Shown: positions 2,899 to 30,770 of the stretch, in pieces
How the letters are laid out: each line of letters opens with the position of its first letter
Numbering within the stretch: position 1 is the stretch's first letter
NCBI GenBank assembly: GCA_027604185.1
Contig: JADGKB010000137.1
Span: 1-32,347, forward strand
Origin: Boothiomyces macroporosus
Lineage: Eukaryota > Chytridiomycota > Chytridiomycetes > Rhizophydiales > Terramycetaceae
DNA: 32,347 bases
Reading direction: 5' to 3'
Notes under the pieces: generated by a model
Told to the model about the DNA's origin: nothing
The model's database searches: none
What the model saw: the letters and a program-made list of their open reading frames with translations, nothing else
Made by a program: the position numbers and the translations under genes

Positions 2899-3223
2899 AT
2901 GTTGGTCAAATCATTTGAATTCAGTAACCCTAACTAGTAATATAGAGTTCCCTCAAGTCTCGATTTTAATTTTTGGTCTCGTTTTGATCTGCTTACCTAA
3001 TCACCATTCAAGTGGCGGAGAAACATATAAAACCAAATCAGGATTCCTATCGACCATGGAAAAAGATTTGGAATTGAACATATGGGATCCATTGGATGCA
3101 TACCATAGCGGATATACCAAACGGGATGTCTACATTACAGCCCTAGTTGGGGTACTCCTGACTATTATTTGTATCATTTTCACTATTACTATATCCACAA
3201 GACTGTTAAGTATCCACACATAG
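2899..3223 (+). CDS. Small membrane protein, two hydrophobic segments
   Basis: Exons 2899-2923 and 2946-3223, with a 22-nt intron (GTAACC...ATATAG), give a 100-residue protein. Without the splice, the ATG at 2899 runs into a stop after 12 codons. The N-terminal segment VSILIFGLVLICL may be a signal anchor. A hydrophilic stretch of about 50 residues follows, with WDPLDAYHSGYTKRD, and then a strong C-terminal transmembrane helix (YITALVGVLLTIICIIFTI). A small two-pass or signal-plus-anchor protein is likely. I do not recognise the family. It sits downstream of the decayed left-end region. Confidence 0.55.
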
Positions 3224-3457
3224 ACTAATTGATTGTTTTTGCATTAAATAATAAAACCTATTTATACCTCAAGTATTGGATAAAGTTTAACAAACTCTAT
3301 TTCAACAATCAAATAGTCTACTTGAAGGCTGGATGCAATACATGGAGTAAACTTGACTTTGGAGTGGTCACCAAGTACTAGACGTATAAATTCGATTACA
3401 GAGTTATTTGGAAGGATTCTAAAAAGTTTAAACTTTCTGTTTACTTTTTTTCGTGAA

Positions 3458-4256
3458 ATGATCACTGAAAAAGAGGATCAGATTCTAAAGTCGGTCTTGC
3501 TCTATGTAGACTCGCTCAAAGATATCCAAAAAGCCCCGTTCAAGCCTCCCAGTATCCCCATATACATAACAGACAAGTTGTACGATATTCTACAGGAGGA
3601 GGATGACTGGAAACATGACAAAATCACTACACGAAAGTAAACCGTATTAATATAGACGATTGCTCCAACTCAACAGACTGGAAATGCAAAGAAAGAATAC
3701 AAGTCCAGTAAAGAAAAGAACTGCACCAAAGAACGAAAAGGTTGTTGGTGTTGACTTGTTGAAATGGATGGATGAACAATCAGATGAAGAAGAGGAACAA
3801 ATACCCCACTTTTCAAGTAAAAAGAATTCAGAGAATGGCGTAGATTCAAACCAAGTTAAGGAAAGTGCACTTTGTCGCAAGTTGGTATTTCCAGCTCGTA
3901 AAGACTCTCCAACTATTCTAAGAGAGCAGCTCACCCCCACCAAAGGAAAATATCTTGGTCCCAACAGAGTAGAGACAAAATCAGCTCTTGCAAAACCAAA
4001 TCTTTTTAAAGATAATCTCCTAGAGAAACTGCCTATTAATTTCATTGGCAAACCAAGATCAACTCCTCGCAAAGACAAACCAGTTGCAATTACTCGCAAA
4101 GAAGACCAAAGCGAAATGGTGACTCCTCAAAGACGCTCCTCCCGAATCAGGTACAAGATTAAAGAATTCTCTAGTGTAAATAAATCCCCAAAGAGAATCC
4201 CAGACTTGGCGGCAGAATCACCAGTCTCTGTAAAGAAACCCAAATTTACTCTTTAA
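3458..4256 (+). CDS. Basic, low-complexity protein with RRSSRIRYK motif
   Basis: Exons 3458-3636 and 3656-4256, joined across a 19-nt intron (GTAAACC...AATATAG), give 259 residues. The N-terminal ~75 residues are predicted helical and contain DDWKHDKITTRKRLLQLNRL across the splice. The remainder is hydrophilic, with an acidic patch (DEQSDEEEEQ) and many Lys/Arg-Ser/Thr-Pro sites. Near the C-terminus PQRRSSRIRYKIKEF resembles the RRS.R basic motifs of chromatin and kinetochore proteins such as CENP-C, but the resemblance is short and not diagnostic. A nuclear role is inference. The frame stays open upstream to about 3350 without an ATG, so a missed upstream exon is possible. The next gene starts 34 bp downstream. 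Confidence 0.6.
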
Positions 4257-4290
4257 TAAACTTTTTCAAAGCTTAACTCTTAAAAAAAGT

Positions 4291-5109
4291 ATGCACTTTT
4301 ACAAGCAAGATCTCGAATTGCTAAATTCCAAAAACAAGTTTCAAGTAAACCCAAAGAAACTCTTGACCATCAAACCAGACACTCTCTTATCAACCGAACT
4401 CTACTCAACTCTCTACACAGCCATCCAGTACAAATCATCACCAAAATTAACAAAAACACTCCTAACCATAATCTCCAAACGCTTTAATCTGGACACTTTT
4501 AGCGAGAATGGCGAGTTTACTATCTGTGGCAAAGTGTTTGTATTGGATATAGCTGAAAAGTGTCGGTTAACTAGTACGTTTCCTGTTCTAGACCAGTTCT
4601 CCTCTTACTTTGATTCAGTGATAAACAATTTTCCCAAACTATTCAAAGCTATTGAACAACTGTCTTATTTTGATGCTGATCCGGAAAGATACCATAAATA
4701 CGTTGAATTCATTACTGGATGGAAAGGAGACTTGTTTAAGGAATGTATGGGGCCTAGTTTAGAGATTCAAGGAATTAAAGGAAAGATTGTAATGGAAGAG
4801 CAGTTGGTGCTTTATCTGGACGAGTGTGTTACTATACCTGCTGGATTGTTTAGTGAATTTGATATACAAGCGAATAGGTTTGAATATGACGAAAATACGA
4901 TTAGTTTGGTTAATAGGCTGGTTATGGTTAAAGGATTGTATGTCCTGGAATGGAGAGGATTGGATTGTCTAGTTTTAATAATCTCTCAAAACGTGGAACG
5001 CTTCTATTGTCTGTTTGCAAATGATATTCAAGTATTTCAGGACGAAAATCTCTCCCAGCTAGTTGCTACTTGCTCTGATTTGAATCAAGTTTACAAATTA
5101 ATAAATTAG
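4291..5109 (+). CDS. Conserved-looking protein of unknown function, 272 aa
   Basis: An uninterrupted ATG-to-stop frame of 272 residues, begun at the first ATG after the preceding gene. It has no signal peptide and no transmembrane segment. The composition is that of a globular, mixed alpha/beta protein, with a helical first half (e.g. ELYSTLYTAIQYKSSPKLTK) and a second half richer in beta strands (LVLYLDECVTIPAGL, RLVMVKGLYVLEWRG). I do not recognise a family. It is one of few longer genes here without an intron. It is convergent with the eEF3 gene, whose stop is 17 bp away. Confidence 0.7.
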   Translation: MHFYKQDLELLNSKNKFQVNPKKLLTIKPDTLLSTELYSTLYTAIQYKSSPKLTKTLLTIISKRFNLDTFSENGEFTICGKVFVLDIAEKCRLTSTFPVLDQFSSYFDSVINNFPKLFKAIEQLSYFDADPERYHKYVEFITGWKGDLFKECMGPSLEIQGIKGKIVMEEQLVLYLDECVTIPAGLFSEFDIQANRFEYDENTISLVNRLVMVKGLYVLEWRGLDCLVLIISQNVERFYCLFANDIQVFQDENLSQLVATCSDLNQVYKLIN

Positions 5110-5126
5110 AATGCAGATGGATTATA

Positions 5127-8100
5127 TTAATTGTAGAGTTCCTTTTCATTTGCAAACTCGTCTTCATCAGAATCCAATTCTTCACCCTTGTCAATCTTGG
5201 CCTTGATCTTTTTAATCATGGCTTTTTCTTCTCTCTTGTTGAGCTTCTTTTTCTGTTTCACTTGGACAGTGTTACCAGTGGCATCAACAATAGATTCGAT
5301 ATTAACTTGGTCATTGATCTTGTCGTCTTGACGGTCCATCCATCCAGATTGTCCCTTGGTGGTCAAGTGACCGGCATCCATAACCCATTCTTCAGTACAT
5401 AGAGTAGAGACGAATTCATTGTGGTGGGAAATAATAACTACACCACCTTGGTATGCCTCGATAGCAGATGCCAATGCACCCAAAGATTCACGATCCAAGT
5501 AGTTGGTAGGTTCGTCCAAAATCAAAATGTGAGGTTCGTTCCATAGAGCAGCAGCCAAAACGACCTTGACCTTTTGACCCCCAGACAATGCACCCATACG
5601 AGTGTGGGATGCGAATTCTGGCTCCAAACCAACATCATTGAGATGCTTTTCAACGTTGACAGATGAAAGAGCTCTCATTTGTAAACCAGATGATTGTGCA
5701 ATACGCATATCAATTGCTTTACATGCCTTTTCCCAACCTTGCTTGATCAAGGTCTTGTGTGGAACATAGGTACCATCAGCAGTTGGTGCTTCGTTCAAGA
5801 AACGGACCTCATATTCAAAGTCACCACCCTTTGCCTTTCTACGAGTACCAGCAACAGTTGCAATAGTCTTCTTGACCATCTTGCCAGTAGCAGGATCTTT
5901 CCATTCAAATGGAGTCTTTTGAAGCTTTTCTTCTTCAGGAGTGTATGCCTATCATTAATTGAGTATTACCATAGAGACTTTGACCAAAGATTCTTTATCT
6001 TCACCAGTTTCGTATCTCCATCTGATATATTCGTTAGGAGTCTTTTCCAAGTGGGCTTCAATGTGGTGGAAGGCGTGTTGAGCGACATAAGCAACACGAG
6101 CATTAGGATGCATCCATACATCACCTTCTTGTGGAACGACTTCACCAGTCAAAACTTTAATCATGGTAGACTTTCCGGCACCGTTTTCACCTACACAACC
6201 GACTCTGGAAGCCATGGATACTTGAATGGAAATATCGTACAAAGTTGGCTTGTCGTTACCTGGATAGGTAAAGTAACAGTGAGACATTTTCATCAAAGCT
6301 CTGGAACGGGACTTGATACCTTCAATAGCACCAGGTTGTGGGAAACTAGATTAGTGAATAACTTACGTAAACTTGAGCTTGGAAGATTTGATGTTAAAGT
6401 ATGACTGAGCTTCTGGGTGAGCTTTGATAAAGTCATCAAGAGTTCCCTTAAATTGCTTAAGCTTAAGGTTCTTGATTTGGATGTAACTGGTACAGCAGTC
6501 TCTCAAGAATCCAGAGTCGTGAGATACCATGATACAGGTTACGTTGGTCAAGGAGTTGATGTAGTTCTTTACCCAAGCGACGTTGATGACATCCAAGTGG
6601 TTAGTAGGTTCATCCAAAAGCAGGATTTCTGCCTTTTGTAACATACAACGAGCCATAGCCAATTTCATTCTCCAACCACCAGAAAGGGAAGATACAGGGT
6701 GGGTTGGCTTGGCTTTACCGTCTGGAGTGAAACCGACTGTAGCCATGATGGACAATACTTCTTCTTTTGGAATACCTTCCAAGGCAGGATCAGCCATGAT
6801 ATAATCAACGCAAGAAAGATGGGACAATTCTCCCAAGATATCGGCTTCAACAAACACAGTCTTTACTTCGGCTGGGTCAGGGAAACCTTCGACAGATCCG
6901 TTAGCAATGGCACGCATGAGAGTGGTTTTACCAGAATCGTTACCACCAAGCAAACCATACTTTCCACCTCTCATCAATCTGAGTTTAGTGTTGTGCAAAA
7001 GAATCTTTGTACCGTAAGCCAGAGTGAATTGGCAGTTACACAATTCAAGTGCTGGATCGTCATCTTCTTCGTCCTTTCCAGGTAATGGTTTTGCCATGGC
7101 TTCACATTCAGTTCTGAGCTTGTCGATAATTGAAGCTGCTTTTTGCTTGTCAATAACTGCCAAATGCTCTTCAATTTCCTTCCAGTGAGACTTGTTGAAC
7201 TTGCGAACGGTCATCAATGAGCAACACAAGCTTGCAACATGGGAAAGGTATGAATCAGCTCCCTTGGCAGAGATTTTGCTCTTGATTGCTTCAAGGACAC
7301 GGGAGTGTTCAATGTGCTGTTGTCTTGATTGAGCTTCTTCTACTTGAGCATTCAAGGATCTCAATTGAGCAACAGATCTTTCAGCAATGTTTCTGGCTTC
7401 AGGGTCAGAAACCATATCAGCAGCCTTTTCCAAAACAGGCATAAGCAAAGGCATGAATGGAGCAGCGTCCAATGGATCATCAACCAATCTAGACATGTTA
7501 TCAATGATAACAGCAGATTGACGGACGGTGGCTTTTGAGCGAGAGTTCAAACCTAATATTAGAAAATACTGTACCTTTAATCAGCAATGGAGTGACCATG
7601 GCTAATGCTGGGGATTCTACAGATTGTACAAAAGTAACACCAGCCAATTTGTGCATGATTTCTTCAGTTTCTTCAGGGTGGGTAATAGAACGCAGGATAT
7701 CGCTAGTCAAATGTTCAATATCTCTATTACCAACAACATCACAAACAGCAACCATGGCAGCTTCAGCGGCAGCGCAAACTTCAGCTTTAAGATCTACGAC
7801 ACACTTTGATACTTCTGGAACTACTGATGGAAGAGCATATCCAAGTTGTTCTGGAGCATGATCGCCAAAACCAGTAATGGCGTTCAAAGCAGCAACACGA
7901 GTTTGCCATCTACACTTGATATCAAGCGCCTGGAACAAGTATGGAAGTAATTCGGGCACAGCGTTAGGAGAAATCTTGTCAGTGATAGCTTTCACGGCTG
8001 CTTGCGCATTAGCGACAGTTTCAGGGGTGGCCTTCTTGTCACCGCAAGCATTGAGAACATCTGGCAAGGTTTTGATCAAATATGGTTGAGCTCTGATCAT

Positions 8101-8289
8101 ATCTTTGTTTGCAAGCTCTTCAAAGACTTTCAAAGCGTGGTTGGCAGCAGTTTGATCCTTCTTGTCCAACTTGGCAACTTTTTCGTTCATCAGATTGACA
8201 ATGTTTTCTAGGATAGAGAGATCTGATTTGCATGCATTCAGAATCTCTGTTGCAGAAGAATTGATATTGAGTTTGCCTACTGAGCTCAT
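5127..8289 (-). CDS. TEF3: Translation elongation factor 3 (eEF3), ABC-F-like ATPase
   Basis: Four exons: complement(5127-5948, 5970-6345, 6367-7552, 7575-8289), with introns of 21, 21 and 22 nt, encode 1032 residues, the usual eEF3 length. eEF3 is a ribosome-bound ATPase that promotes E-site tRNA release. The N-terminal ~310 residues form HEAT repeats. The first ABC domain has its P-loop at ~441-449 (GGNDSGKTT), LSGGW at ~529 and LLDEPTNHLD at ~549. The second has GENGAGKST at ~686, a chromodomain-like insert (~783-845), LSGGQ at ~880 and LDEPTNYLD. The tail is Lys-rich then acidic. The first P-loop deviates from GPNGCGKST. The start MSSVGKLN is the first ATG; a TATA-like TATTTAAA lies about 30-40 nt upstream. 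Identification is firm. Confidence 0.97.
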
Positions 8290-11132: not shown

Positions 11133-11186
11133 TGGCAGACAGAAATAAATTGGATTGCGGATCAAAATTCATTAAATATATATTAG

Positions 11187-11589
11187 TCAGTCTTCATCTG
11201 AATGTATAACTCTCTTTTTCCTGGTAGAATCAGTCTTTTTCTTCTTTTTCTTTTCAATATACTCTTCTTCATCTACATCAAATCCAATTACCATCAATAA
11301 TCGCATCTTGTTCTTGCTGTATCTTTGAAAACGAAACGGAGGACTGGGAAAAGATCCGGTCTTGATCTATAGTCCTCGCTCGTCTGTTTGGAGTCCTAGA
11401 ATTCAGAAATCCTTCGTATCCTCTAATTATATTTCCATAAGTTGAATCTTCAATGTAGGACGTTTCGAGATTGTATAGACTCTGTTCGATGGAATCAAGG
11501 TTCTTGAACAACTGCTTCTTTTTCTGTAGCATCTCTGTCAGCTCTTTTTCTGCTTGTGTCAAATCGTCCATGCTGTATTCCTTGCTCAT
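11187..11589 (-). CDS. EAF6: NuA4 histone acetyltransferase subunit Eaf6/MEAF6
   Basis: Two exons, complement(11187-11272, 11292-11589), with a 19-nt intron, encode 127 residues. The coiled-coil MDDLTQAEKELTEMLQKKKQ is followed by the family hallmark SYIEDSTYGNIIRGYEGFL. After the splice comes DDEEEYIEKKKKKK and an acidic end. Eaf6 is a small scaffold subunit of NuA4 and MOZ/MORF-type acetyltransferase complexes in the nucleus. I chose the ATG at 11589 (MSKEYSMDD); an in-frame ATG at 11649 would add 20 hydrophobic residues atypical of the family. The splice is required for the basic-acidic C-terminus, because the unspliced frame stops at once. The gene is divergent from RPT1. Confidence 0.92.
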
Positions 11590-11710
11590 TTCGAATTTCA
11601 AAAAAAAGAGATCAGAAAAGAATTCGAGATAGATTTTTATTTGCACCATTTATAAATTTACGATTATTTATTACAATAATCCTATTTCTAGGAATTATTG
11701 AATTGGGTAA

Positions 11711-11771: not shown

Positions 11772-13237
<1,466 letters not shown>

Positions 13238-13320: not shown

Positions 13321-15121
13321 ATGGCGATTAATGTCGTTCTAGTAATAACAGCAGTAGTATTTGCAGTCCTAGTCACAATCGCATCACTCTATTTCGTTGT
13401 TTATTTCCAGCATCCTCAAGATAAATGGGTGGCGTGGTTTCCAAAAGCAGTGGTGGTAATCGAGTATTAAAAAGGTTGCATCTTTATCTTGCGCGGCGTG
13501 GAATTTGTTCTTGCTTCCGTTGGACGTAGCTAATCAAAACGGAATAATTGGAGACGCTAATGGATTGCCTATGGATAAACTAACCCTTGGGTTTTTTGGA
13601 TGTACAATTGGCTTAGTGGTACTAATAGTCCCATTCACTGTATTCTATTATGAAGGGGAAGATTCAGACGACAGTGATAACGGAGAATCATCAAGGTACT
13701 TTTAGGTAATGTAGGTCTGCTGGAGCGCAATTTGGATATGCTATAAAGTATATTATCCCAACACTTGTCATTCTAGCAGGTATCATTGCAGCAATGTACT
13801 GGGGAGGCCTAGGCTACGCTGAAATCCAAACCACCTATTTACAGTCACCGTTATTTGATACTACGCTGATTGAACAAAACTCGTTGGATTTCTTTTTCTC
13901 TTTTGATTTTTATTGTAATGGAAGTGCTATTGGAGTGCCAATTACGTTGCATCCAAAAATACCGCTTTCCAATGGGACTGTTTATACACCTATACCTGTT
14001 GGGTACTCTAGCAATACTTGGGAACCTGGGTTTGGGTGCCAGTCACTTACTTCAAGTGGAATTGCAATAGTACTTTATGTTTTATATAGGCTTGTTGTAA
14101 AGTGCCTGCTGTCAACGATGTCGTGGTATCACCTGGTGTATTTATAGTTGCAGTAATGACACTTGTTGGTTGGGCAATCTTTAGTGTATTCTGTGGGGTA
14201 GGAATGGCAGCACTGCCATACGACTGGCTGAACGAGTTCAAACACCGACCAAAACCAATAACAGCTGCAGAGTACCAAGATCGTAAGAAAATGATTGGTG
14301 AGCAATCAGTGATTCTCATGGAAGCTTACAAGACGCTCTCACAAGAATTAAAAATGGCTGGAAGGAGCAACAACTTTAGCAGGAAATACAGACAAATCAA
14401 GAATCGAGAAAACAGGTTTAGAAAGGACGTTGTTATCCTCGAGTATCATTATAGAAATCTTGAAGATGCGTATAGGTTCCAGGGTGGAAACCTGATACTC
14501 CAATACTCAAAGTTTAGTTTTGCCATTCTTTCGTAACTGTTATTAACCAAGAACTATATTGACTTTGATGTGGCTAATTCATATTGCGTTGTATGTGATT
14601 CCGGTAACGCTTCAAATGAAAGGTGTGCCAATCAATCCGATCAGTCCATTTTTGAATGATATGCTTAAAGCCACGGCTGGTATCCCTATAATCGGAATTT
14701 TGTTGTACGCTATCTTTACTTTTTACTTGCTTGGGTGTGTGATTAAAGGAAACGCCAAACTAGGCATGAGGATAATCTTTTTCACTATTCATCCACTGGC
14801 GTAAATATTGCTAATGTAGAATTGGAGAAACTTTGATGAGCGCGATGGTGTTCAATGCCGGTATAATTCTCTTGTGTTCAATGCCATTAACTCAGTTTAC
14901 CACAATTGCGTTCCAGGAATACGCAAAGTTCACGGCAAACCAATGTAATATTAATTAACATAGCCATATTTGGTGTGCAGATTTCAAGTATGAAGGGAAT
15001 CAGTTGGGGATTCGATATTTTCATGTACGTACTGCTTGGATTCTGTGTCCTGACATTCTTTTATAATATGTACAATCCTTATTCCAAACAAAAAGAGAAT
15101 CAATTGCGGTTCAACTGGTGA
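13321..15121 (+). CDS. LMBR1-domain (LMBD1/LIMR family) multi-pass membrane protein
   Basis: Seven exons: 13321-13455, 13475-13695, 13715-14069, 14090-14532, 14552-14800, 14820-14944 and 14964-15121. The introns are 19 nt except one of 20, and the product has 561 residues. Several TM helices alternate with loops. Family landmarks are LLPLDVANQNG, FYYEGEDSDDSD, GMAALPYDWLNEFKHRPKPI followed by a charged coiled-coil loop, and HPLAIGETLMSAMVFNAGII. Animal LMBD1 is a lysosomal membrane protein that works with a cobalamin exporter; plant and fungal LIMR homologues are uncharacterised, so a vacuolar or endomembrane site is inference. Without splicing, the gene falls into six short frames. The product name is firm at family level only. 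Confidence 0.92.
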
Positions 15122-15459: not shown

Positions 15460-17739
<2,280 letters not shown>

Positions 17740-17977: not shown

Positions 17978-19121
17978 ATGAAACCATTCCCAGATGATTC
18001 ACAGATCCCAAAACCAAGAGAAATAAACGGAAATGAAAAGATACCAAATTTCGTCAATGTCCTGAATCATAAAATCAAGGAGCTGGAGCAGCAGAAGATT
18101 GATGGGTACAAGGAACGAAAAAAGGATTTTCAAGATGTTATAGAATGGCTGCAAGTGGGAGATGATGAGTCTAGAGAAAAGCTGGCTCAGAAATTCCTCA
18201 TGTTGTTTCAAAACTACTTGGATTCCAACTCTAGTCTTGCTAAAGTCAAGCAAATGGCTCATCAGAAAATAAAGGACAACGAGCAGAGTAATCATTGTTA
18301 ATATAGTGCGAAAAGAAAATGCGACCATCAAGCAAGAAATGGCAAGATATTTGGAGTTTTCACAAAACAAGGATTACGATAAATTGGCAAATGACTTTAA
18401 GCAGAAACTGATTCAAGAGCAGCAAAAGTTTCAGCAAGAAAAGCAGCGAGGGCAAGAGCGGTTGATGCAACTGGAACAGACCTTTAAACTCCAACTCCAA
18501 GATTTGCACAAGAAATCTATTCAAGAACGCAAGTCAAAGCTGTTTGAAGAAAATCAAATTTTAAAGGAAAAGCTAAAAGGATTTCTATTAGAGATTGATT
18601 TGCAGCAAAAATCCTTTAAATCGACTCTAAAGCGACAGCACAAGGAGTACGAACTTGCTCTGGCAAAGTCGGAATTACACAGACAGGAATCTTCAAAAGC
18701 CAAAGAGCATTATCAGGAGACCAAACAAGTACATCAATTTAATATAGAAACTGGACAATTGTATAAAGACCGAACAAGAGTTGCGCAAGCAGCTATCAAT
18801 CTACGTAGAGAAATTCAAACAAGTGGAAGAAACTCTAAACAAGTCCAACGAACTGTTTATCACATTTCGAAAAGAAATGGAACAGGTAAATCTGATTAAC
18901 CAAGATGGCAAACAAGACAAAGAAACTTGAGCTGGACAACAAGAATGTGCGACAGTTGAATGAAAATTTACAAGAGCAGTTGAAAAAAGAAACTAACCAA
19001 GTACTTTATACTAACCTAGAAAAAGAGTTTAATGGGCGAGCTTGATAACTTGAATGAACAAATTCGTAAAAAGGAAGATCTGTGCAGATATCTACAAGAC
19101 CAATTGAATAAAAAAAAGTAA
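17978..19121 (+). CDS. Taxilin-family coiled-coil protein
   Basis: Five exons, 17978-18287, 18307-18728, 18748-18885, 18905-19000 and 19020-19121, with four introns of exactly 19 nt, give 355 residues. The protein is almost wholly coiled coil. Diagnostic taxilin sequence appears only after splicing: ELRKQLSIYVEKFKQVEETL, then NKSNELFITFRKEMEQM, then ANKTKKLELDN. In animals taxilins bind syntaxins and the nascent polypeptide-associated complex and act in vesicle traffic; the fungal role is less known. The reading frame changes at 18729-18747, where the unspliced DNA appears frameshifted. The stop codon lies 5 bp from the stop of the convergent SCYL2-like gene. Confidence 0.92.
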
Positions 19122-19126: not shown

Positions 19127-21242
19127 TTATAACAGATCAAATTCGCGAATTTCTTTTTTTGATAGCTCTCTTTTTATATTGGACGCGATTGTTGGTATTT
19201 TTGGGTTGATTGATGGTTGCATAACTGGCAGTGATTGTAGACCTAGTGTGTCTGAATAATTTGTTGGTCTTGATTGCAGACCTAGCGTGTTTGAATAGTT
19301 TGATGGTGGTGGATTTATTGTCATTGATTGTAGAGCAAGTGTATCTGAATAATTGGGTGGTCTTGAGGGCGGAACTAGTGTTGCAGGTTTGTTGAATGAT
19401 GAAAGAGGTTTCTGATCGGTTATGTTGTCGATTCTATTCCAGAAATCCAATGATGCTGGCGTCTCTTTCTGTTCTCTAACTATCGGGTTGGTTGGCTGTA
19501 CTGGTTTACTTTGTTCAACAGGCTTGTTTTGCTCAATTTGTTTTAGTTTTTGTTGTCTCGCTAAAGTACTCAAATTATCAATTGTTGCAGTGATATTCTT
19601 AAAGTTTTGCATTGTTATTTGTTGGTGGAATGATAGTACCCATAGCTGAGGGATAATAATTGTTCCTATTATTTGGTAATCTACTAATTCGCTTGATTTC
19701 TGGTATATACTAATGTATAATGATATTAATGATTGATGCGGTTTGTTTCTTTGTTCTAGTAAAGGTAGCAATCCTTTACTAATTGTTGTCTATATTAGAT
19801 TAATTGTACAGAGTCTAGTTTTGGAACCAGTGACTTGATTGCCAGTAAAGTGTTTCCTTGGACTCCCACTACTTTTGCAGTTGAAAATATTTGCTGAATC
19901 TTATCGTATATCTAAATTAACACGATTTACATTTTTAATCGTGTGATAATCCAGGTTTGGGGCAATTTTTGACAGAGACTGACAAGCAGTAGTTTGAATT
20001 TGCATGTCACTACTTTCGATAGCATCCATAATGAAAGGTATCAGCTCCTTGATGTCGCATTTTTGTAATATCAAGTCAATTTTTGAATATATAGCCAGTA
20101 TAATGTCATTGTTTTGGCTTGAAAGACTGATCTTTATGCAGGGCAGTATATGCTCTTTAAAGTCTGTTTCATTAGTTTTTTCAGCAATAAACAGAATATT
20201 AGGAAGTAAAAAGTTGATTAATGCCGGGTTCTTCATTTCCTGTTCTAGTACTGGAAGAATTTTCTTTACCAACGTCAAAGTAGAAAACAAAGGTAGCATG
20301 CCCAACAGCCCCTTCAAAAACGCGGCTTTATCACTATTTGATTGTTCAATAAACGTGCCAAGGTATTTTATGGTATTTACTGTGTTGCTGTTAAAGTAGT
20401 CTGTTTGAAGGAATTCATCAAGATCAATCCTCATCGTGATTTCTACGGCAAGCATCCGCCTAACGACTGATTCTAAAAATGCAGGTAAAAATGAAAGGTT
20501 GAGAGGTTGTGCTATTGCATCCTTGAAATTTTGCATTGTAGCAATACAATGGGGATGTCCTTTGTTGAATAGCGCACATACTAGCGCACCGAGAGAATAG
20601 ACTTGTTAAATACAATTTACCATCACTTTTTGGTTCGCACTGGTCGTTCAGAATCACTTCTGGTGCAAAATAAGCCAAGGATGGCAGGCAATACTGTGGA
20701 AATGTTCTTATAGAAAGGGTTCCTACTCTTGAAGCAAATTCAAATCCGCTTATTTTCCAATCGTTTTTCACATCAATAAATATACTTGAAGGTGTTAGAC
20801 AGTTGTGCACGATGCCATTGGAATGTAGAAACTCCAACCCTTTGCAGATGTTTAATAGCCCAGCTTGTATTTCCAGTTCATCCATTGGGTTAGTATGGAT
20901 TAAACTGGATAAATTCCCAATTAGCGGGTCAGAACCAAAGCAAAACATGGTCTTTAAATCCACAAATGCTTCAGTGACGTGTAAAATACATGGGTGCCGC
21001 AACCTAGTCAATTGCTGCACCGATTGCTTCATTATTTCAGAAATATACTCTGTTTCTTTTTTCAATTGCTCTGGTTTAGCGAACGGAATCAATTTCTGTA
21101 TTCTTGATTTGTCAAACATAAAAATCGAGAGCTGTTTTCCGGTTTGCTTCTTTGTAGCGCTACTAATATTCCATAGATCCCCAGGTCCTGATTTGGTAAT
21201 CGACTGTTTTATTTCGTACTGCTGCGAAAGTGCATTTCCCAT
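19127..21242 (-). CDS. SCY1-like pseudokinase, SCYL2/Ppk32 type
   Basis: Four exons, complement(19127-19789, 19810-19911, 19931-20601, 20621-21242), with introns of 20, 19 and 19 nt, give 685 residues. The N-terminal half is a degenerate kinase fold. VQQLTRLRHPCILHV matches SCYL2, the catalytic HRD is replaced by HNC (IVHNCLTPSSIFI) and DFG by SGF (KISGFEF), so phosphotransfer is unlikely. HEAT-like repeats follow (FLKGLLGMLPLFS, LPNILFIAEK). The C-terminal tail is low-complexity with three NYS[DN]TL[AG]LQS repeats and ends EFDLL. SCYL2 proteins act in clathrin-dependent traffic between Golgi and endosomes. I chose the ATG at 21242 (MGNALSQQ), which fits an N-myristoylation signal; an upstream in-frame ATG at 21275 adds residues unlike the family. 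Confidence 0.92.
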
Positions 21243-21642: not shown

Positions 21643-21651
21643 CCCGCCCTT

Positions 21652-21681: not shown

Positions 21682-22894
21682 ATGGCGCCAAAGATTCTGT
21701 GTCTGCATGGCATGGCAGGATGCAAGGAAAGGCTGCAGAAATCGTTACAGCCACTGCAGGACCTACTTTACGAAAAGTACGAACTGGTCTACATTAACGC
21801 TCCCTTTGAATTTCCCAAAGAATGGCTGCCAGAACCTCTTTTAAACTCTGGTGCACCTAGTTTCAACCGTTGGTTTGAAAAATGCCAGCATTTGACAAAC
21901 GGGGAAACTAGAATGGTATACAAAGGGCTTCCTGAAGTATCAGTGGATTTGGACTTGGAACCAGCATTGAAAAAAGTGCAAGAGGTATGGGATGATACTT
22001 TTGTCGGTATATATGGCTTTTCTAACGGATCAATGGTCGCTGGCATGGTGTCGAGTTTGTTGGTTCCACAACCAAAGTTTGTGTTATTCAATGGAGCTAT
22101 CCCTGAAGGTTTGGAAATGTTTTCAAAAACCTTGAATTGTCCTAGTTTAAATTTGATGGGATATACTGACGGAAACAGGCACTTGATTTCAAGAGGAAAC
22201 GGGCTATTTGAAACTGTCCATTATGAAGGAGGACACAGGACCATTTACGATCAAGCGACTTTTGACCGAATTGTTTATTGGTTGGAATTATTAGGACAGG
22301 ATCATTCAATCCCCATTCAACCTTTAAATTACACACTGTCCATGTTTTGTTTAAACCCTGATGAACCTAATGTCAAAGGAACAGTGTCTATAAGGTACCT
22401 GTGGATTTAATTCTAGCGTTGGAACCAAATCTGAACTGAAATCAATCACGTTGGACAAGAATAAAAACATTCGGGCATCAAAGGCTAGCGTAACTTGTCT
22501 ACGAACATTTGACAATCTAGAATCAGTAAAGGATTGGGAAACTGCGCAAGATACTTTTAGGTACACACAAAATCCAACCATCAGCCAGTCTGACTCACGA
22601 GTTGATATAATCTTTCCTTTAACACTCCCAAAAGATTCCAATTTCATTATTTACCTTGAATTTGACACGAATATGAATGAAATTGGTGGTGATTTGCGAT
22701 TTCCCTGCTTCAAGTGGACAAAATCAACATTCTCTGTAAACATTTTCCATCCAACTGGAACATTGATTGACTTTATCGAGTCTAGTAAACGAACGGAATC
22801 CATCACCATCAATGACATAGACTATCTTTCTCAGCAGTACTCTATTCTGACTCCTATTGCGCCAGGATTGTTATCCTTTGATCTTAAAGTATAG
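21682..22894 (+). CDS. FSH1/OVCA2-type serine hydrolase with extra C-terminal domain
   Basis: Exons 21682-22394 and 22417-22894, with a 22-nt intron, encode 396 residues. Residues 1-~215 form an FSH1-family alpha/beta hydrolase: KILCLHGMAG oxyanion region, nucleophile Ser114 in GFSNG, Asp163 in GYTDG, and His185 in EGGHRTIYD. The family comprises small esterase/lipase-like hydrolases of about 220-270 residues. The remaining ~180 residues form a separate part, rich in beta strands (VDIIFPLTLPKDSNFIIYLEF, DLRFPCFKWTKSTFSVNIF), that I do not recognise. The splice joins the two parts in frame (SIR/S-VGTKSE). The catalytic triad looks intact. The substrate is unknown. Confidence 0.88.
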
Positions 22895-25671: not shown

Positions 25672-25703
25672 TTTTCAAGATAAAAATTATTTCGTTGCAA
25701 AGA

Positions 25704-25709
25704 TGACGT
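25704..25709. promoter_or_regulatory. TGACGT element upstream of paralogue B
   Basis: TGACGT within GATGACGTCTC lies 33 bp before the start of the gene beginning at 25671, between the start codon and a TATA-like box. It corresponds to the element found 27 bp before the paralogue's start. Function is inferred from this shared position only. Confidence 0.3.
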
Positions 25710-25728
25710 CTCTCAATTTTATACAGAT

Positions 25729-25965
25729 ATGACATTTTATAATTTCACTCCTATCGATAGTATTGGCGGCAAACAAACATCAATTGTAATTGAATTACCT
25801 GATAGGAATCGGTGCCGACAGACAGTAAGGTACTATTTCCATCACTGCAAGGAAAGGCTGAAAACCAAAGTTACAGATATAGATTTATTAAAAAGAAATT
25901 ACAATCTTTCTGGATTTACCATCTTCAGATTCATGAATTTCAACCTTTGCACCTTGGTCAATTAA
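25729..25965 (+). CDS. Doubtful small ORF
   Basis: A 78-codon ATG frame begins MTFYNFTPIDSIGGKQTSIV. The first ~30 residues look protein-like, but the frame then runs antisense into the end of the reverse gene at 25888. A splice near GTAAGGTAC (about 25826) could change the 3' part. No family is recognised. It may be a chance frame in the spacer between two reverse genes. Confidence 0.2.
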   Translation: MTFYNFTPIDSIGGKQTSIVIELPDRNRCRQTVRYYFHHCKERLKTKVTDIDLLKRNYNLSGFTIFRFMNFNLCTLVN

Positions 25966-26502
25966 ATCAGCTAATTCAGCTTCAGAAAAACGAGGAGTTG
26001 GCGCGACTGGTGGGATAGGAGGAACTGGAGGCAGAGGTGGAATTGGAAGACCCCCTTCAAAAGATGGAACTGGTGGTGGAGGTGGGAATGGAAAGTGTGG
26101 ATGATTGAATCTTTCACCTCTCTTTGCTCTCTTGGCCCTTTCAGCCCTGTGATGCTCGTGTTCTTTCATGGCATTCTTTACTTCATAGGAAGCGTGCTTT
26201 AGTTCTCTAGCCAGTTCTTTTGCAGCTTTCTTTGTTTCCCTGGCCACCTCTTCTTTTGCCCCACACAATTCATCTCCAACTTCTTTTGCAATCATTGCGG
26301 CAAACTTTCCGATACTTTCTGCCAAATCACAGAATGGCTGGTATGCGTCAGTATAGTCTTTTTTTTCTTGTTCTTTGTAAGAGTCAAACTGTTGCTTGAT
26401 TCTCGAGTCAATGTCAAAATCTGGACATTTTTCATCAGTGCAGATATTTTCTTTTGGAGCGCTTGGTGAGTGTGAGTGCAAATATACGATATTGTTTGCC
26501 AT
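25888..26502 (-). CDS. Helical, proline-rich protein of unknown function
   Basis: An intronless frame of 204 residues, beginning MANNIVYLHSHSPSAPKEN. Residues ~30-130 are helical and strongly charged (EEVARETKKAAKELARELKH, then HEHHRAERAKRAKRGE). A proline-rich segment follows with runs such as FPFPPPPPVPSF and IPPLPPVPPIPPVAPTP, of the type bound by profilin, SH3 or WW domains. The C-terminus (AELADLIDQGAKVEIHESED) is a short ordered piece. There is no signal peptide or TM segment, so it is probably cytosolic. No family is recognised; a link to actin or membrane traffic would be guesswork. Confidence 0.7.
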   Translation of the reverse strand: MANNIVYLHSHSPSAPKENICTDEKCPDFDIDSRIKQQFDSYKEQEKKDYTDAYQPFCDLAESIGKFAAMIAKEVGDELCGAKEEVARETKKAAKELARELKHASYEVKNAMKEHEHHRAERAKRAKRGERFNHPHFPFPPPPPVPSFEGGLPIPPLPPVPPIPPVAPTPRFSEAELADLIDQGAKVEIHESEDGKSRKIVISF

Positions 26503-26528
26503 TTTGTTATTTCAATTGAATCCGCGTC

Positions 26529-26741
26529 CTATTTATATGCAAATGTGGGGTCCGGGTAAAGGTATGTAAAATTTACCCGAGGTAATTCCTGCAAATTTCG
26601 TGATTCATAACTAACACCTATGTTCGTCAGTGATTCGGCAAAGAAGGGATAAAGGTTATTCCATAATCTCCGGTGTTTATCCTGGAATTTAAATAATCGA
26701 TTGTAAAATATTTCTGCAAACAAAATATCATTGTCAGACAA
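26529..26741 (-). CDS. Possible small gene, start unresolved
   Basis: A 70-codon open frame with protein-like composition (FAEIFYNRLFKFQDKHRRLW, LPRVNFTYLYPDPTF) lies between the proline-rich gene and the zinc-transporter promoter. It has no ATG at its 5' end. The upstream sequence ends in GTTAAATAG, like the acceptors used here, so a tiny first exon may exist, but I could not find one with an ATG. It may be a fragment. Confidence 0.3.
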   Translation of the reverse strand: MSDNDILFAEIFYNRLFKFQDKHRRLWNNLYPFFAESLTNIGVSYESRNLQELPRVNFTYLYPDPTFAYK

Positions 26742-26846
26742 GCTATTTAACTTTAGACCTGTTTACAGGATTTGTATTAATATTTAATGCCGACCTACGG
26801 CTCAAGTGCTTAAACCGCACCAGTAAGTTTGACTTTTTTTGTCAAC

Positions 26847-28057
26847 ATGGACAAACAAACAAAACTGATAGTGATGATTTGCTTATCCTCACTATTTTTC
26901 TTTGCAGAGCTATTTGGAGGATATGTGTACGGATCAGTCGCTCTCATTGCAGACTCGTTCCATATGCTCTCAGATATATTCTCGTTTATTATCGCACTTT
27001 ATGCCACCAGAGTATTTTGTAATAACGATAGATATCAAAGGCGGTTGTCGGGCCAGAGTTTTCATTCGGATTACAGAGAGCCGAAATTATAGGGGCGCTG
27101 ATTAATGGTTGTTCATTGCTTTCCCTCTCCTTTATTTTGATAATCGAAGCGATGCAGCGTCTAATAGAACCAAGTGGTATTGAAAATCCGTGGGTAGTGC
27201 TCTGTGTTGCTTCGTCTGGATTGGTCATGAATATCGTTGGAATGCTTATTTTTCATGGTTAGTTTGATTAATGCAGGTCACTCACATGGCCACTCTCATG
27301 GACATGATCACTCTGGACATGCAGGACATTCACACTTTGAAGATCGTTTATTGCACGATGAAGAGAACCCTCATGAGCCACACACGCATACTCACAATGG
27401 ACAGGTTTATCACCAATTGCCAACAGATTTAGAAGAGATTGTGGAACAAGATCCACTAGAATTGAATACTGCCGTTGTTAAAGCTGCAGAATTACTCAAA
27501 AAAGAACACACTCATACGGATTTGAATTTACACGGAGTCTATTTACACTTGTTTGGTGATTTGCTAACTTCAATCGGAGTAATATCCTCTACGTTAATTA
27601 TTATTTATGTAAAACAAGACTGGACGATCTATATGGACCCACTAATGTCGTTATTGATTACAGTGATTATTATTATTTCAACCATCCCCCTCTGTCGGTC
27701 GGCAATATTTATCCTACTTCAAGCAACTCCGCAGACAATATCCCTGCCTGCGCTAAAGAAGGATTTGATGAAAATCAGAGGTATAGCTAATATTCATGAG
27801 CTACACGTTTGGCAACTGTCAGATACTCAAATTATTGGATCAGTACACGTAGTATTGGCTAAAACGAATGAATCGTATATGGAAATTGCAGATTTAATTA
27901 AAATCAAGATGCACGTAAGTATATGTTGACGTAGGATCATGGAATTCATAGCTCGACTGTCCAGCCAGAGTTTGTTGACGAATATGATGACTGTGCACTA
28001 CAGTGTCCAGTTGGTTGCGACGAGCTTCGTTGCTGTCCCCTTGAAAGAACTGAATAA
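26847..28057 (+). CDS. CDF zinc transporter, ZRC1/COT1/ZnT1 type
   Basis: Exons 26847-27011, 27032-27257, 27277-27914 and 27935-28057, with introns of 20, 19 and 20 nt, give 383 residues. Six TM helices are present, with the metal-site motifs ALIADSFHMLSD in TM2 and HLFGDLLTS in TM5. The loop between TM4 and TM5 is histidine-rich (GHSHGHSHGHDHSGHAGHSH and more), as in ZRC1-type H+/Zn2+ antiporters that load zinc into the vacuole or export it. The C-terminal domain contains ELHVWQLSD and, after the last splice, HDHGIHSSTVQPEF. The tail has six cysteines (CALQCPVGCDELRCC), an unusual ending. One intron begins GTTAGT. Confidence 0.93.
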
Positions 28058-28828
28058 ACTTTATTGCTACTCCAACTTTACCTTTCAACAAATTATTTAA
28101 ATGAATTTAGGCTCTTACCATTACAATTACTTCATACAAATAAACGTTTGACACTATTCTTATACAAACTGTCATGTAATAGGTATATTAGACAACATAA
28201 TTGTCAAAGTAAAGAGAGAATCTACCTTATTTTCAGACAAATTACGTTCACTACTCACATAAAATCGCTGTCGACTCTCAAATAAATGTATCTCTAACTT
28301 ATCGGATAGAAAAGTATCTATTAAGTAGGGTTGACAGCCCTAATTCTCCGTTTTAGTATAACCTCAAGTCACATGACTGTATATCTATTTCAACCACAAA
28401 AAAAAACTTTACATTCATAAAGGTAAGACCGACAATGCACTCGATGATGAGACAAAGCAAACCGCTACTCTTAAATATACTGTAGATGAAATGCCTACAA
28501 ATTCGTTGAGAGTGCCAATTCTTTATTGAACAAATTAACAGTAGGTATGTTGAAGATTGCCAAATGAAGAAGAAATGATCTTGACTATGATGATGTCTCT
28601 AAAACTACAATTCCCTGATGGCATTATTTTCGTAGACTAATTTTAGGAATCAGATTCTTAAATTATTTTACTCTTAATGTAGAGTAATTTGGTGAATCAG
28701 TTTACATTGCCAAATGATGCTTGTAATTTGCGTCTTACGGTAATCATTGGGAGGTTTCGCCGCCTCGTTATCCGTGGTTACTTGGATGATGCCAACTTTA
28801 ACTGATGGTATTATGTAGACTTTACAAT
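28058..28828. other. Long gap with no intact gene
   Basis: About 770 bp between the zinc transporter and the convergent WLM protease. A forward frame at 28064-28285 lacks protein-like composition. AAGTCACATGACT near 28366-28378 is a one-mismatch relative of the E-box palindrome before RPT1. A possible gene remnant is listed separately. No tRNA or repeat is seen. Confidence 0.4.
28440..28567 (+). pseudogene. Possible remnant of a small gene (weak Pcc1-like look)
   Basis: Two short forward pieces in different frames, TLKYTVDEMPTNSLRV and ANSLLNKLTVGMLKIAK, abut where one base appears missing (AGAGTGCCAAT). The joined pattern faintly resembles the C-terminal half of the small KEOPS subunit Pcc1 (LRVS-NS-L-L), with the middle strand absent. 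This rests on pattern memory only and may be chance. Confidence 0.2.
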
Positions 28829-29653
28829 TTATTTTGAGCCGCATCCATCTTGGATTTCTTGCTCTTCTTTTGTTAATCTCGAAGTAGCTGCCTGGAGCAA
28901 GATGTCTCGTAATTCTCCTTGTTTCTTTCCCCCAAGTACATTTACGGTAGATTCTACAGAGACGACGCTGCCAGTGCTACCGTCCAATCTCCTTCCTTTA
29001 TACCTTTCATAATCCCTGTTAAGTTCACGGTCCAATCTATGGAAATGCTCATCATGTTCATTGAATATCATATGAGCTAATTCATGCAGGAGCACTTTAA
29101 CAATCGAATTATAGTATCTAAATCCATCCAAATTATCTGTACGCAACCGTAATGCTACAACTTGTCCTTTGTTTTGATTATATCCCAAAATAGTCTTTTC
29201 ATCTGGATGTAATTCAGTCAACCTAGTAACTCTCCATTCCCTTTCGTACATGATTTGTTTAATTGAAGGATCGTCTCGTAACTTGAACAACAGCTCCCTA
29301 GCCTTTTCCTTTTCATGTAACTCTAGCGGCTCGATGTGTTTGAAATATCCTTGTTTCACTATATTATATTTTGGACGAGATAGCAGAGCGTTATTATAGT
29401 TCTTTTGTGCTTGGTGTGCAAACTCTTCTTTTTGGTGCAGTGTATCTACTTGGCGGTTTGAAGTCACAAGCACAATAATCTTGTATGGAGAGTTTGATGG
29501 TTGTGGGAGCTGGTGAATCTGTTTTCCAGAATGCAGTATTTTTACTAGTGATGGGTCTGGATTGAATTTACTGGTCAAGTCTGTAAAAACCGCATCGTCT
29601 GGCAAGTCAATCTGAAGCGACTCTTTTTGGAATTTTGTTGTGAATGAAATCAT
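28829..29653 (-). CDS. Ubiquitin-like plus WLM-domain metalloprotease
   Basis: An intronless frame of 274 residues from the ATG at 29653 (MISFTTKFQ). Residues 1-~65 look like a ubiquitin-like domain (LQIDLPDDAVFTDLTSKF, VKILHSGKQI). The WLM domain follows, with zinc-binding HELAH at 190-194 and a third His at ~200 in NEHDEHF, the family's HExxHxxxxxHD pattern. The domain order matches fungal ubiquitin/WLM metalloproteases related to Wss1 and SPRTN, which cleave DNA-protein crosslinks or SUMO/ubiquitin-conjugated substrates. Its exact substrate is unknown. It is convergent with the upstream decayed region, and no intron is needed. Confidence 0.9.
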   Translation of the reverse strand: MISFTTKFQKESLQIDLPDDAVFTDLTSKFNPDPSLVKILHSGKQIHQLPQPSNSPYKIIVLVTSNRQVDTLHQKEEFAHQAQKNYNNALLSRPKYNIVKQGYFKHIEPLELHEKEKARELLFKLRDDPSIKQIMYEREWRVTRLTELHPDEKTILGYNQNKGQVVALRLRTDNLDGFRYYNSIVKVLLHELAHMIFNEHDEHFHRLDRELNRDYERYKGRRLDGSTGSVVSVESTVNVLGGKKQGELRDILLQAATSRLTKEEQEIQDGCGSK

Positions 29654-29835
29654 TACTGGCAAGGGTTTGCCCTTGTGAATTTATACTTTGCGGAAAAACG
29701 GAAAAATCTGCAACTTGATGTCAAAGAATGTTACAGAAGCTGATATTACACTAGCGCAAACTAATAATTTGATTACACTAATGGAAACTACTTTAATAAT
29801 TTGACTAAAATAATTGATAAAGTAACACCAATTTA

Positions 29836-30770
29836 TTACAAATTAGGCTGGCCAGACAAAAAGAACCACTTGTCAATAGATGGATCCATTGGTTCTGGTG
29901 CTTTAGGGCTGGACTTTGGAATGGCTTTGAATTGAGCATCATCAGCTGCCACTTTGTATGGAGAAGCATCTACTGACGAGTTTGCAGTACTGATACTGTA
30001 ATCGTCAGTCTTTGCTGGTGCTTGGTTGTTGATCAACTTTTTCCATGCTTCGTGACATTCAAGGATAACTTCCCAAGTATAAGTCTTGTTCTTGGCCTCA
30101 CCACTGAAGGCAAAGTTGTTTTCTGGCTTTCCGTCTGGGATTTTGTAAATACGGAACCATTCGTTTGTAGCTCTTAATAAACCTGGCAAATGCTTTTCAA
30201 CATCTTCAATATCATTTAATTTAGGTGCTAATGGATCTTTAACGTCAATGACAATGACTTTCCAGTCAGTCTCACCTTTGGTTAATAACAATTACCTTCA
30301 TCTAAGAGAGCCATGACACCCAAGACTTTGACTTGTTTAATTTGGCCAGTGTAGCCAACCAACTCACCAATTTCAATAACATCAAGAGGATCACAGTCTC
30401 CCTTGGCTTTAGTATCTGGGTGGGTGTGGTTAGGGTCTTCCCAGGTTTGTGGGAAGGCACCATAGTTCCAAATGTAACCATGGTGAGGGAAACAGTTGCG
30501 AACATAACGCAATTTACCCTTCTTTGTATCTTGCAGGATTGGGTTAAAGAATTCTTCCTTTGAGATTTCCATCTTTGCATTTGACCAACGTGGGATTTCA
30601 ACAACCATGTTCAAAACAGTTTGTTCGGCATTTGCAAACAGAGGAATGTCGTGGAAAGGAGAAACTGGTTTCTTGTTTTGATCTTCTGAACGTTAACACA
30701 AATTACCGAAAAATACTCTGTATTCCAATGTGTTTGGAGCACCGACGATACGAGGTTGAATGTTTGCCAT
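29836..30770 (-). CDS. IPP1: Soluble inorganic pyrophosphatase (family I)
   Basis: Three exons, complement(29836-30275, 30296-30685, 30707-30770), with introns of 20 and 21 nt, give 297 residues. The enzyme hydrolyses PPi to two phosphates in the cytosol. The core is highly conserved: [20 protein letters not shown] across the first splice, [36 protein letters not shown], the metal-binding signature DCDPLDV at ~118-124, [13 protein letters not shown] across the second splice, and [16 protein letters not shown]-terminal extension of ~60 residues ending [12 protein letters not shown] is absent from yeast Ipp1 but resembles the tail of animal enzymes. This supports an opisthokont outside the budding yeasts. 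Confidence 0.97.

Follow-up and report, generated by a model that had tools for sequence, protein, structure and literature searches.

A chytrid genome with predicted introns of about 20 nucleotides that stack head to tail and may leave one-codon exons

Regimes of ultrashort introns are known in other lineages, but to our knowledge none is known in fungi. In the excerpts of PMC10245619 on which we draw, 217 of the 224 introns of the mikrocytids Mikrocytos mackini and Paramikrocytos canceri, parasites with a reduced spliceosome, are 16 nt long and the rest 17 nt, and these nuclear introns are very uniform and conserved. The same excerpts give 18-21 nt for chlorarachniophyte nucleomorphs and 15-16 nt for free-living heterotrich ciliates, in agreement with the comparison that an earlier sequence-only reading of this DNA had made. 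As portrayed there, mikrocytids share with the chytrid Boothiomyces macroporosus very short, uniform spliceosomal introns in a nuclear genome, although the predicted chytrid introns are mostly 19-24 nt and less strict in length (44 and 111 nt occur). The nucleomorph comes near to the same length window but is a relic endosymbiont nucleus, whereas the heterotrich introns, also ultrashort, are shorter still and belong to ciliates.

We analysed a window of 32,347 nt, positions 1 to 32,347 of contig JADGKB010000137.1 (assembly GCA_027604185.1), in which the sequence-only reading had placed 38 introns in 12 genes. On the coding strand (plus for 29, minus for 9) every one of the 38 segments runs from GT to AG, their lengths had been counted correctly (16, 13, 5, 3 and 1 of 19, 20, 21, 22 and 41 nt), and 12 open reading frames (ORFs) are restored once they are removed. 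The 41-nt outlier is exactly two introns, so the window total is 39, with 16, 14, 6 and 3 at 19, 20, 21 and 22 nt; the restored ORFs comprise 16,173 nt of coding sequence, or 2.41 introns per kb. Recognisable proteins, also claimed, emerge in ten of the 12 ORFs, with the families MCM5, Rpt1, eEF3, Eaf6/NuA4, LMBR1, taxilin, kinase, FSH1, cation efflux and pyrophosphatase; the restored MCM5 has the length of the Terramyces protein, 719 aa, and the kinase ORF matches as a kinase, its name SCYL2 coming from the earlier reader. No Pfam match was found for ORFs 2899-3223 and 3458-4256, so that introns 2924 and 3637, two of the 38, have the ORF and the motif as their sole support. The predicted introns are given below; each has GT-AG ends and a restored ORF, with any further evidence after the semicolon.

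2924-2945, plus: 22 nt, small ORF 2899-3223; no Pfam match
3637-3655, plus: 19 nt, ORF 3458-4256; no Pfam match
5949-5969, minus: 21 nt, eEF3; eEF3 match
6346-6366, minus: 21 nt, eEF3; eEF3 match
7553-7574, minus: 22 nt, eEF3; eEF3 match
11273-11291, minus: 19 nt, Eaf6/NuA4 subunit; just beyond NuA4 match (36-107)
11787-11807, plus: 21 nt, Rpt1; precedes aligned part of Rpt1
11863-11882, plus: 20 nt, Rpt1; Rpt1 alignment
11921-11940, plus: 20 nt, Rpt1; Rpt1 alignment
12023-12043, plus: 21 nt, Rpt1, tandem-pair intron 1; AG abuts next GT, protein alignment continuous across pair
12044-12063, plus: 20 nt, Rpt1, tandem-pair intron 2; zero-length exon before, Rpt1 alignment
12524-12543, plus: 20 nt, Rpt1; Rpt1 alignment
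12944-12963, plus: 20 nt, Rpt1; Rpt1 alignment
13094-13112, plus: 19 nt, Rpt1; Rpt1 alignment
13456-13474, plus: 19 nt, LMBR1-like; Pfam match
13696-13714, plus: 19 nt, LMBR1-like; Pfam match
14070-14089, plus: 20 nt, LMBR1-like; Pfam match
14533-14551, plus: 19 nt, LMBR1-like; outside best LMBR1 stretch (8-340)
14801-14819, plus: 19 nt, LMBR1-like; outside best LMBR1 stretch (8-340)
14945-14963, plus: 19 nt, LMBR1-like; outside best LMBR1 stretch (8-340)
15609-15628, plus: 20 nt, MCM5; MCM5 match
15876-15895, plus: 20 nt, MCM5; MCM5 match
16066-16085, plus: 20 nt, MCM5; MCM5 match
16768-16787, plus: 20 nt, MCM5; MCM5 match
17109-17127, plus: 19 nt, MCM5; MCM5 match
17238-17258, plus: 21 nt, MCM5; MCM5 match
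18288-18306, plus: 19 nt, taxilin; Pfam match
18729-18747, plus: 19 nt, taxilin; Pfam match
18886-18904, plus: 19 nt, taxilin; Pfam match
19001-19019, plus: 19 nt, taxilin; Pfam match
19790-19809, minus: 20 nt, SCYL2-like kinase; outside kinase match
19912-19930, minus: 19 nt, SCYL2-like kinase; outside kinase match
20602-20620, minus: 19 nt, SCYL2-like kinase; kinase match
22395-22416, plus: 22 nt, FSH1-type hydrolase; outside FSH1 match
27012-27031, plus: 20 nt, cation efflux (CDF); Pfam match
27258-27276, plus: 19 nt, cation efflux (CDF); Pfam match
27915-27934, plus: 20 nt, cation efflux (CDF); inside ZT_dimer match
30276-30295, minus: 20 nt, inorganic pyrophosphatase; Pfam match
30686-30706, minus: 21 nt, inorganic pyrophosphatase; precedes pyrophosphatase match (60-242)

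These segments share one anatomy, GTA followed by a YTRAY-like motif and AG. The best branch-site match is a YTAAY 5-mer (TTAAT, TTAAC, CTAAT or CTAAC) in 29 of the 39 and YTGAY in three more; in the rest, such as 13456, 14070 and 17238, the motif is weak. Among the 16 introns of 19 nt, 13 have the presumed branch A placed 13 nt past the opening G and 5 nt short of the closing G, the branch point being assigned by motif alone; our script keeps the leftmost of tied motifs, and several of its distances are off for that reason. Phases are distributed 16/13/10, and in-frame stops occur inside 27 of the 39 introns and in all six whose length is a multiple of three. We infer that the segments are spliced from RNA through a branch point at the motif, each forming a module of GTAnnn, about 4-6 nt, the YTRAY branch site, 1 to 3 nt and AG. 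All needed signals would then lie within about 20 nt, and recognition would proceed across the intron without help from exons.

Because the window segments were picked by the earlier reader, they cannot serve as their own proof, and other contigs provide the independent test. In 200 kb outside the window, drawn from 20 other contigs and counted without gene models, GTA[AC]...[CT]TAA[CT]N(1-3)AG pairs occur 43, 45 and 22 times at 19, 20 and 21 nt, compared with a background of about 3 for each length from 40 to 400 nt, and at other lengths up to 400 nt in this sample the main motif shows no excess over chance. Genome-wide, GTAAN(5-8)TTAAYATAG has 307 matches versus 26 for the reversed pattern, while gaps of 9-38 (22-51 nt in total) before the same 3' motif give no excess (99 versus 160 reversed). 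The first listed places of GTAAN(5-8)TTAAYATAG matches are spread over contigs C1-C22. In six CCT chaperonin genes located by homology, 29 of 31 introns measure 19-24 nt and the other two 44 and 111 nt; all six proteins are restored near full length, and the alpha and gamma proteins align without gaps at the 111- and 44-nt sites. Motif counts and CCT genes thus both bear out the proposed genome-wide dominance of introns of about 20 nt, with longer introns dominant in neither. The proposed 19-22 nt range holds for the 19-21 nt peak outside the window but is too strict at its upper edge, which lies near 24 nt: introns of 23 and 24 nt occur, and two of the 31 CCT introns are longer. The length distribution is narrow and below about 25 nt across the genome, which places this chytrid among ultrashort-intron regimes. 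With about 0.5 introns or more in each kb sampled and a genome of 15.2 Mb, the introns of this fungus would number in the thousands. A matrix-based spectrum has an additional bump at 15-16 nt (counts of 6 and 9 versus 2.0 under the most permissive threshold, and at 16 nt further counts of 4 and 3 versus 0.65 and 0.18), in which 5 of 15 pairs end in an AG that also has a GT 19-22 nt before it; we take it for an artefact, as the two matrices overlap at such lengths and count the same bases twice.

It is scarcely credible that the segments arose through errors of sequencing or assembly, or that they represent coding inserts. The assembly is redundant in places, with identical 3.1-kb copies, but GT-AG ends with the inner motif recur at set lengths elsewhere in the assembly (20 other contigs sampled; C1-C22), and the in-frame stops noted above weigh against coding inserts. 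It is also very improbable that a non-spliceosomal process, like that of euglenid nonconventional introns or acting on DNA, removes them: their uniform short length resembles that of excised DNA elements, yet they have GT-AG ends and a branch-like motif, by eye the 38 listed sequences carry no terminal repeats, and the genome encodes canonical spliceosomal RNAs. U1 RNA starts with AUACUUACCU (68.8 bits, slightly below the gathering score of 69.5), U2 contains GUGUAGUAUCUGUU and U6 contains ACAGAGA, the usual recognition sequences. A U2AF large-subunit-like gene at C2:122543, matched exon by exon, scores 230.7 bits (curated cut-off 310.3), and U12 RNA had no match in the genome, an absence that according to the search tool proves nothing. 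The GT-AG ends, the branch-site motif and U1, U2 and U6 with pairing sequences appear to fit the major, U2-type class. The segments are thus very probably ordinary U2-type spliceosomal introns, which the sequence suggests have been squeezed to a near-minimal module in this member of the Terramycetaceae.

The ultrashort regime itself has precedents in other lineages; the surprising part is the arrays. The 41-nt Rpt1 segment at 12023-12063 consists of GTAATTAACGATTAATTCTAG (21 nt) and GTAAATTAGTTCTAATCAAG (20 nt) with no exon between, and in an ING gene as many as five introns stand in direct succession, across which the Boothiomyces protein P0121 has identical residues. A zero-gap tandem pattern finds nine matches, at eight places, versus none in the reversed control, and at all eight the first unit begins with a GT 19-23 nt upstream of its AG end, which the pattern does not require. 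Family matches span the junction in Rpt1, ING, BRE, a ubiquitin-conjugating protein, a TRIP12-like protein, a Gid4-like protein (Vac_ImportDeg) and transportin. We know of no tandem arrays among chlorarachniophyte nucleomorph introns. The AG|GT junction inside the intervening sequence is as in zero-nucleotide recursive splicing in Drosophila, where, as Duff 2015 reportedly described, AG is directly followed by GT, the first step leaves the junction with a 5' splice site and very long introns are subdivided; in the chytrid, by contrast, the stacked elements are complete introns of 19-23 nt, as many as five. In the Hypoxylaceae, stwintrons are, in the excerpts of PMC9024468, complex intervening sequences of canonical fungal introns, and most external introns in one group have 5-7 nt between branch and acceptor. 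As described there they are nested, the inner intron splitting a signal of the outer, whereas the chytrid units are consecutive; a stwintron was ruled out, since both units are complete in the Rpt1 pair and the other pairs examined.

Each array unit would be removed as an intron of its own, one by one. The arrays would yield the same mRNA if cut as one longer intron, so unit-by-unit removal remains a prediction, and we regard it as unlikely, though well worth weighing, that they are single longer introns in which only the outermost sites are used and the inner units are minisatellite-like relics of duplication. Tandem duplication is evidently at work, as an array on contig C8 opens with two copies of one 19-mer and units 3-5 of one on C92 resemble each other, and the 44- and 111-nt CCT introns show that longer introns exist. 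Against this, inner units with differing middles retain GT, a branch-like motif, AG and a length of 19-23 nt, zero-gap tandems (nine versus none) stand out over near-tandems with gaps of 1-15 nt (19 versus 6 taken together, four of them on C103), and the same 3' motif has no genome-wide excess at 22-51 nt. Moreover, a formin read without its ACC exons would have proline runs about half as long, while relatives' runs are 7-8.

Of the exons predicted for the proline-rich FH1 region of this formin, 27 are 3 nt long and 25 of these read ACC; another proline-rich gene of that contig is predicted to have 14 further exons of this size. With 50 introns removed, chosen partly by hand in the final gene model, the formin is one ORF of 1,214 aa that runs through FH1 and includes GBD, FH3 and FH2. 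Such an array of 3-nt exons is extreme, and its splicing is predicted from sequence with that partly manual choice, but we doubt that it is left unspliced as a decayed repeat or pseudogene, or translated by other means: the uninterrupted ORF and the near-uniform ACC exons speak against this, 34 of the 36 array introns are distinct yet all 36 have GTA and 34 have TAG, and in four relatives' formins FH1 likewise combines long runs of proline with spacers like GMGG or GSGFGG. If the introns are self-sufficient, they can stack without an exon (Rpt1, ING, BRE, transportin and others) or leave 3-nt exons between them, as in the formin FH1.

We consider it reasonably probable that introns of this lineage are self-contained cassettes of 19-24 nt and multiply in the manner of a minisatellite, stacking up to five deep and cutting coding repeats into one-codon exons, so that the FH1 polyproline would be assembled from 27 exons of 3 nt, one proline each, with the 14 others in the second gene. 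Intron gain would then be cheap and near-neutral, with no lower limit on exon size. Excerpts of PMC4974935 present tandem genomic duplication as a source of new introns; in the chytrid, what duplicates is apparently the intron itself, which leaves the coding sequence unchanged.

These findings also bear on annotation. The deposited ING protein of Boothiomyces sp. JEL0838 (P0121) ends in YTLVN, the codon reading of the B. macroporosus 19-nt intron GTATACCTTGGTTAATTAG up to its TAG; gene models of these fungi are therefore liable to drop real exons. A chytrid with near-minimum introns, canonical U1, U2 and U6 and natural arrays offers a test of the minimal RNA that the spliceosome requires around splice sites and between them, and of whether splicing can be repeated some tens of times within about 1 kb. 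The view that exons help to define introns is called into question by its arrays, which also make a path of intron gain visible.

In the window, all 38 intervals proposed as introns by the sequence-only reading run from GT to AG on the gene strand, and their removal restores 12 open reading frames, as had been claimed. Ten of these fall in known families (MCM5, Rpt1, eEF3, Eaf6/NuA4, LMBR1, taxilin, kinase, FSH1, cation efflux and pyrophosphatase), and two have no Pfam match. The restored MCM5 has 719 residues, exactly the length of its best relative's MCM5, and is 96% identical to that of Terramyces sp. JEL0728; Terramyces and Boothiomyces both belong to the Terramycetaceae (Rhizophydiales, Chytridiomycota). 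Rpt1 aligns with the proteasome subunit 7 chain with one gap of one residue, away from the interval 12023-12063. This interval had been read as a single 41-nt intron; it consists of two complete introns of 21 and 20 nt, the AG of the first abutting the GT of the second. Reading through into the first unit meets TAA within three codons, and removal of both yields 12 residues in register with the solved chain in the alignment. Two other features of the window were observed:

1-859, minus strand: a series of repeats, ankyrin-like by eye, in which the motif NLENMKWLKENGCPWDE occurs, extending past the window start
28829-29653, minus strand: intronless open reading frame with HELAHMIFNEHDEHF, metalloprotease-like by eye

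Among the resulting 39 window introns, with phases 16/13/10, 37 start with GTA. A YTRAY-like motif lies close to the 3' end, its A 13-14 nt past the first G in 28 of the 39 and 5-6 nt ahead of the last G in 28. All six introns with a length divisible by three contain an in-frame stop, a feature known from Paramecium introns of such length. We found genes for U6, two U2 and one U1 snRNA with the usual pairing sequences, and as judged from these RNAs the splicing machine looks ordinary. A gene resembling the U2AF large subunit was matched with a score under the curated cut-off; its division into exons may account for this.

Intron lengths were also counted free of gene models, by pairing donor-like with branch-acceptor-like motifs in 200 kb sampled outside the window. 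With the main motif, GTA[AC]...[CT]TAA[CT]N(1-3)AG, pairs at 19, 20 and 21 nt numbered 43, 45 and 22 against about three at each other length, and no further length between 10 and 400 nt rose more than 4 standard deviations over baseline. Three further motifs were tried in the same sample. Two have their maxima at 19 and 20 nt, and one of these peaks also at 10 nt, where its donor and acceptor motifs overlap themselves; the third is very rare (11 acceptors, baseline 0.04 per length), with 6 counts at 19 nt, and is too rare to judge beyond that length, so single counts flagged at many other lengths were discounted. A motif-matrix spectrum agrees with the main-motif result at lower counts and has a bump at 15-16 nt. 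Fifteen pairs above threshold have these lengths, including a high-scoring 16-mer in the fetched stretch L010; they are probably matrix overlap, and some real introns below 19 nt may exist. Across the whole genome, the strict form GTAAN(5-8)TTAAYATAG has 307 matches versus 26 with the reversed pattern, and a longer-gap form (22-51 nt in all) has 99 versus 160 reversed, a count that presupposes an unchanged 3' motif. Scaled to the 15.2-Mb assembly, the excess of about 100 pairs per 200 kb would correspond to roughly 7,700 introns, a figure to be read with the many introns missed by the motif and with redundancy in mind. The assembly (216 contigs, the window being C137) is partly redundant, and copies may be included in genome-wide counts; the stretches L004/L005 and L007/L008 on contigs C1 and C173 are identical 3.1-kb copies. 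A generalised HMM gene finder with a flat intron length prior and bare GT-AG was too weak and was not used as evidence, nor was its version with the motif matrix, which recovered 18-25 of the 39 window introns depending on the setting, fused genes by long false introns and likewise peaked at 19-22 nt.

The proposed genome-wide regime of 19-22 nt holds in that most introns are ultrashort; its range, however, is 19-24 nt for most, with a few longer ones, seen in chaperonin (CCT) genes. These genes were found exon by exon with a Pfam profile, and six were fetched; removal of 31 introns gives six open stretches of 514-552 residues (the proteins being the longest open stretches, with provisional starts in L035 and L033). 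Lengths of 19-24 nt account for 29 of the 31 introns, the others having 44 nt (CCT gamma) and 111 nt (CCT alpha). The alpha and gamma proteins, the only two aligned, are gapless against solved CCT chains across these sites, so longer introns exist, although few here. The list was made by eye, because the spliced-ORF scripts admitted false in-frame introns and left some 20+22 nt pairs as coding, and it leaned partly on CCT sequences of other species. From 49 script candidates we dropped those contradicted by the protein, terminal ones and a single one that preceded the start codon; two misplaced introns, of 20 nt in L035 and 111 nt in L037, were placed by eye, and one listed start in L035 was off by one (correctly 116), with the product unaffected. 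Three of the longer introns carry GATC-rich palindromes:

L037:615-725
L038:654-697
L036:294-317

Hairpin folding beats 95% of shuffles in two of these three, and in three of the six introns in the test, which were picked by eye, so that no claim is drawn. Looping-out of a hairpin might cut the effective length of longer introns.

Ultrashort intron regimes are already known in other lineages: PMC10245619 gives lengths of 16-17 nt for mikrocytids, 18-21 nt for a nucleomorph and 15-16 nt for heterotrichs. In the portion consulted of a study of 644 fungal genomes, Cryptococcus introns with a mean of 63 bp are termed relatively short (PMC8476143). Our literature search, partial in coverage and no proof of absence, returned no report of chytrid introns below 25 nt, of serial 3-nt exons or of intron arrays.

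Introns standing head to tail with a zero-length exon between them, as in Rpt1, recur elsewhere. The tandem pattern has nine matches at eight places in the genome versus none for the reversed control, and all eight places have a complete first unit, with GT 19-23 nt before the AG end, which the pattern did not require. The ING gene on contig C92 has five consecutive units of 20, 19, 21, 21 and 20 nt; taking them out gives HVFTELINSSNDLL, identical there to the protein of Boothiomyces sp. JEL0838, to which the ING protein has 97% identity over 90% of the length. That deposited protein (P0121; compared with L040, G000:C92:39800-41400) ends in ...CMYEWYTLVN, which is the 19-nt intron GTATACCTTGGTTAATTAG of the present genome translated to its TAG, and the PHD finger is cut short in the record. 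The BRE gene on C8 has two triple arrays, the first including two identical 19-mers and the second noticed solely through its location in the same gene. Arrays also occur in genes for transportin, a TRIP12-like protein (three units), a Gid4-like protein and a ubiquitin-conjugating protein (L047), the last coming from the longer-gap match list; in L041 and L044 the family match leaves the junction undecided, and L046 is without identification. Independent chance insertion, considered as a source of the zero-gap tandems, was rejected since it predicts equally many exons of 1, 2 and 3 nt, which were not seen outside contig C103, although selection against tiny exons could also deplete them.

On C103, one-codon exons are concentrated in a Diaphanous-type formin (GBD, FH3, FH2) whose proline-rich FH1 region is split by introns of 20-24 nt. 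The predicted model, a script result with two doubtful in-frame segments removed and three motif introns added by hand, encodes 1,214 residues after removal of 50 introns and has 27 internal 3-nt exons, up to four of them in succession; 25 read ACC, and one each reads GCC and TCC. Phase 2 in 42 of the 50 introns means that each ACC exon supplies one proline. The 36 introns adjoining 3-nt exons include 34 that are mutually distinct; GTA is present in all 36 and TAG in 34, and 33 have an A at the usual branch position. Comparable runs of prolines, interspersed with GMGG- or GSGFGG-like spacers, occur in the formins of four relatives. A second proline-rich gene has 51 predicted introns, 14 3-nt exons and 10 6-nt exons; we read WH2-like motifs in it, and its first 353 residues have no Pfam match. 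The two genes, about 23 kb apart on this 49-kb contig, look like proline-rich actin regulators. Genome-wide, an NCC-exon pattern has 23 matches (22 on C103, one on C133) versus none in the control, and a pattern for 1-15 nt exons with the strict branch motif has 19 (four on C103) versus 6.

These observations suggest a mechanism in which donor, branch site and acceptor would all lie inside the roughly 20 nt of each intron, so that splice sites could be paired across the intron. The exon's contribution to recognition could then be only small, and exons of 3 or 0 nt would be tolerated because little is needed from them. Duplication of a unit within a gene would leave the protein unchanged and could spread. 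Since the signals of each unit are kept up, the units of an array are probably removed one at a time. A zero-exon array may instead be removed as one long intron; such removal fits the 3-nt exons less well. Going by the parts of the sources consulted, stwintrons are nested (PMC9024468), unlike the arrays described here, and zero-nucleotide recursive splicing (PMC5126111) is the closest mechanism for the arrays.

Arrays may also have broken formin gene models in Terramyces and Boothiomyces: among 36 matches to a formin search (5 without organism name), limited to proteins 0.55-1.75 times the length, none was labelled with either genus, while other chytrids were present. The Globomyces formin P0183 contains the odd FH1 peptides MMMGKDCLLTIGGG and PGLMPLDLCIGMGG, which could be in-frame ultrashort introns kept in the annotation. 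If they are introns, the ultrashort regime predates the Terramycetaceae.
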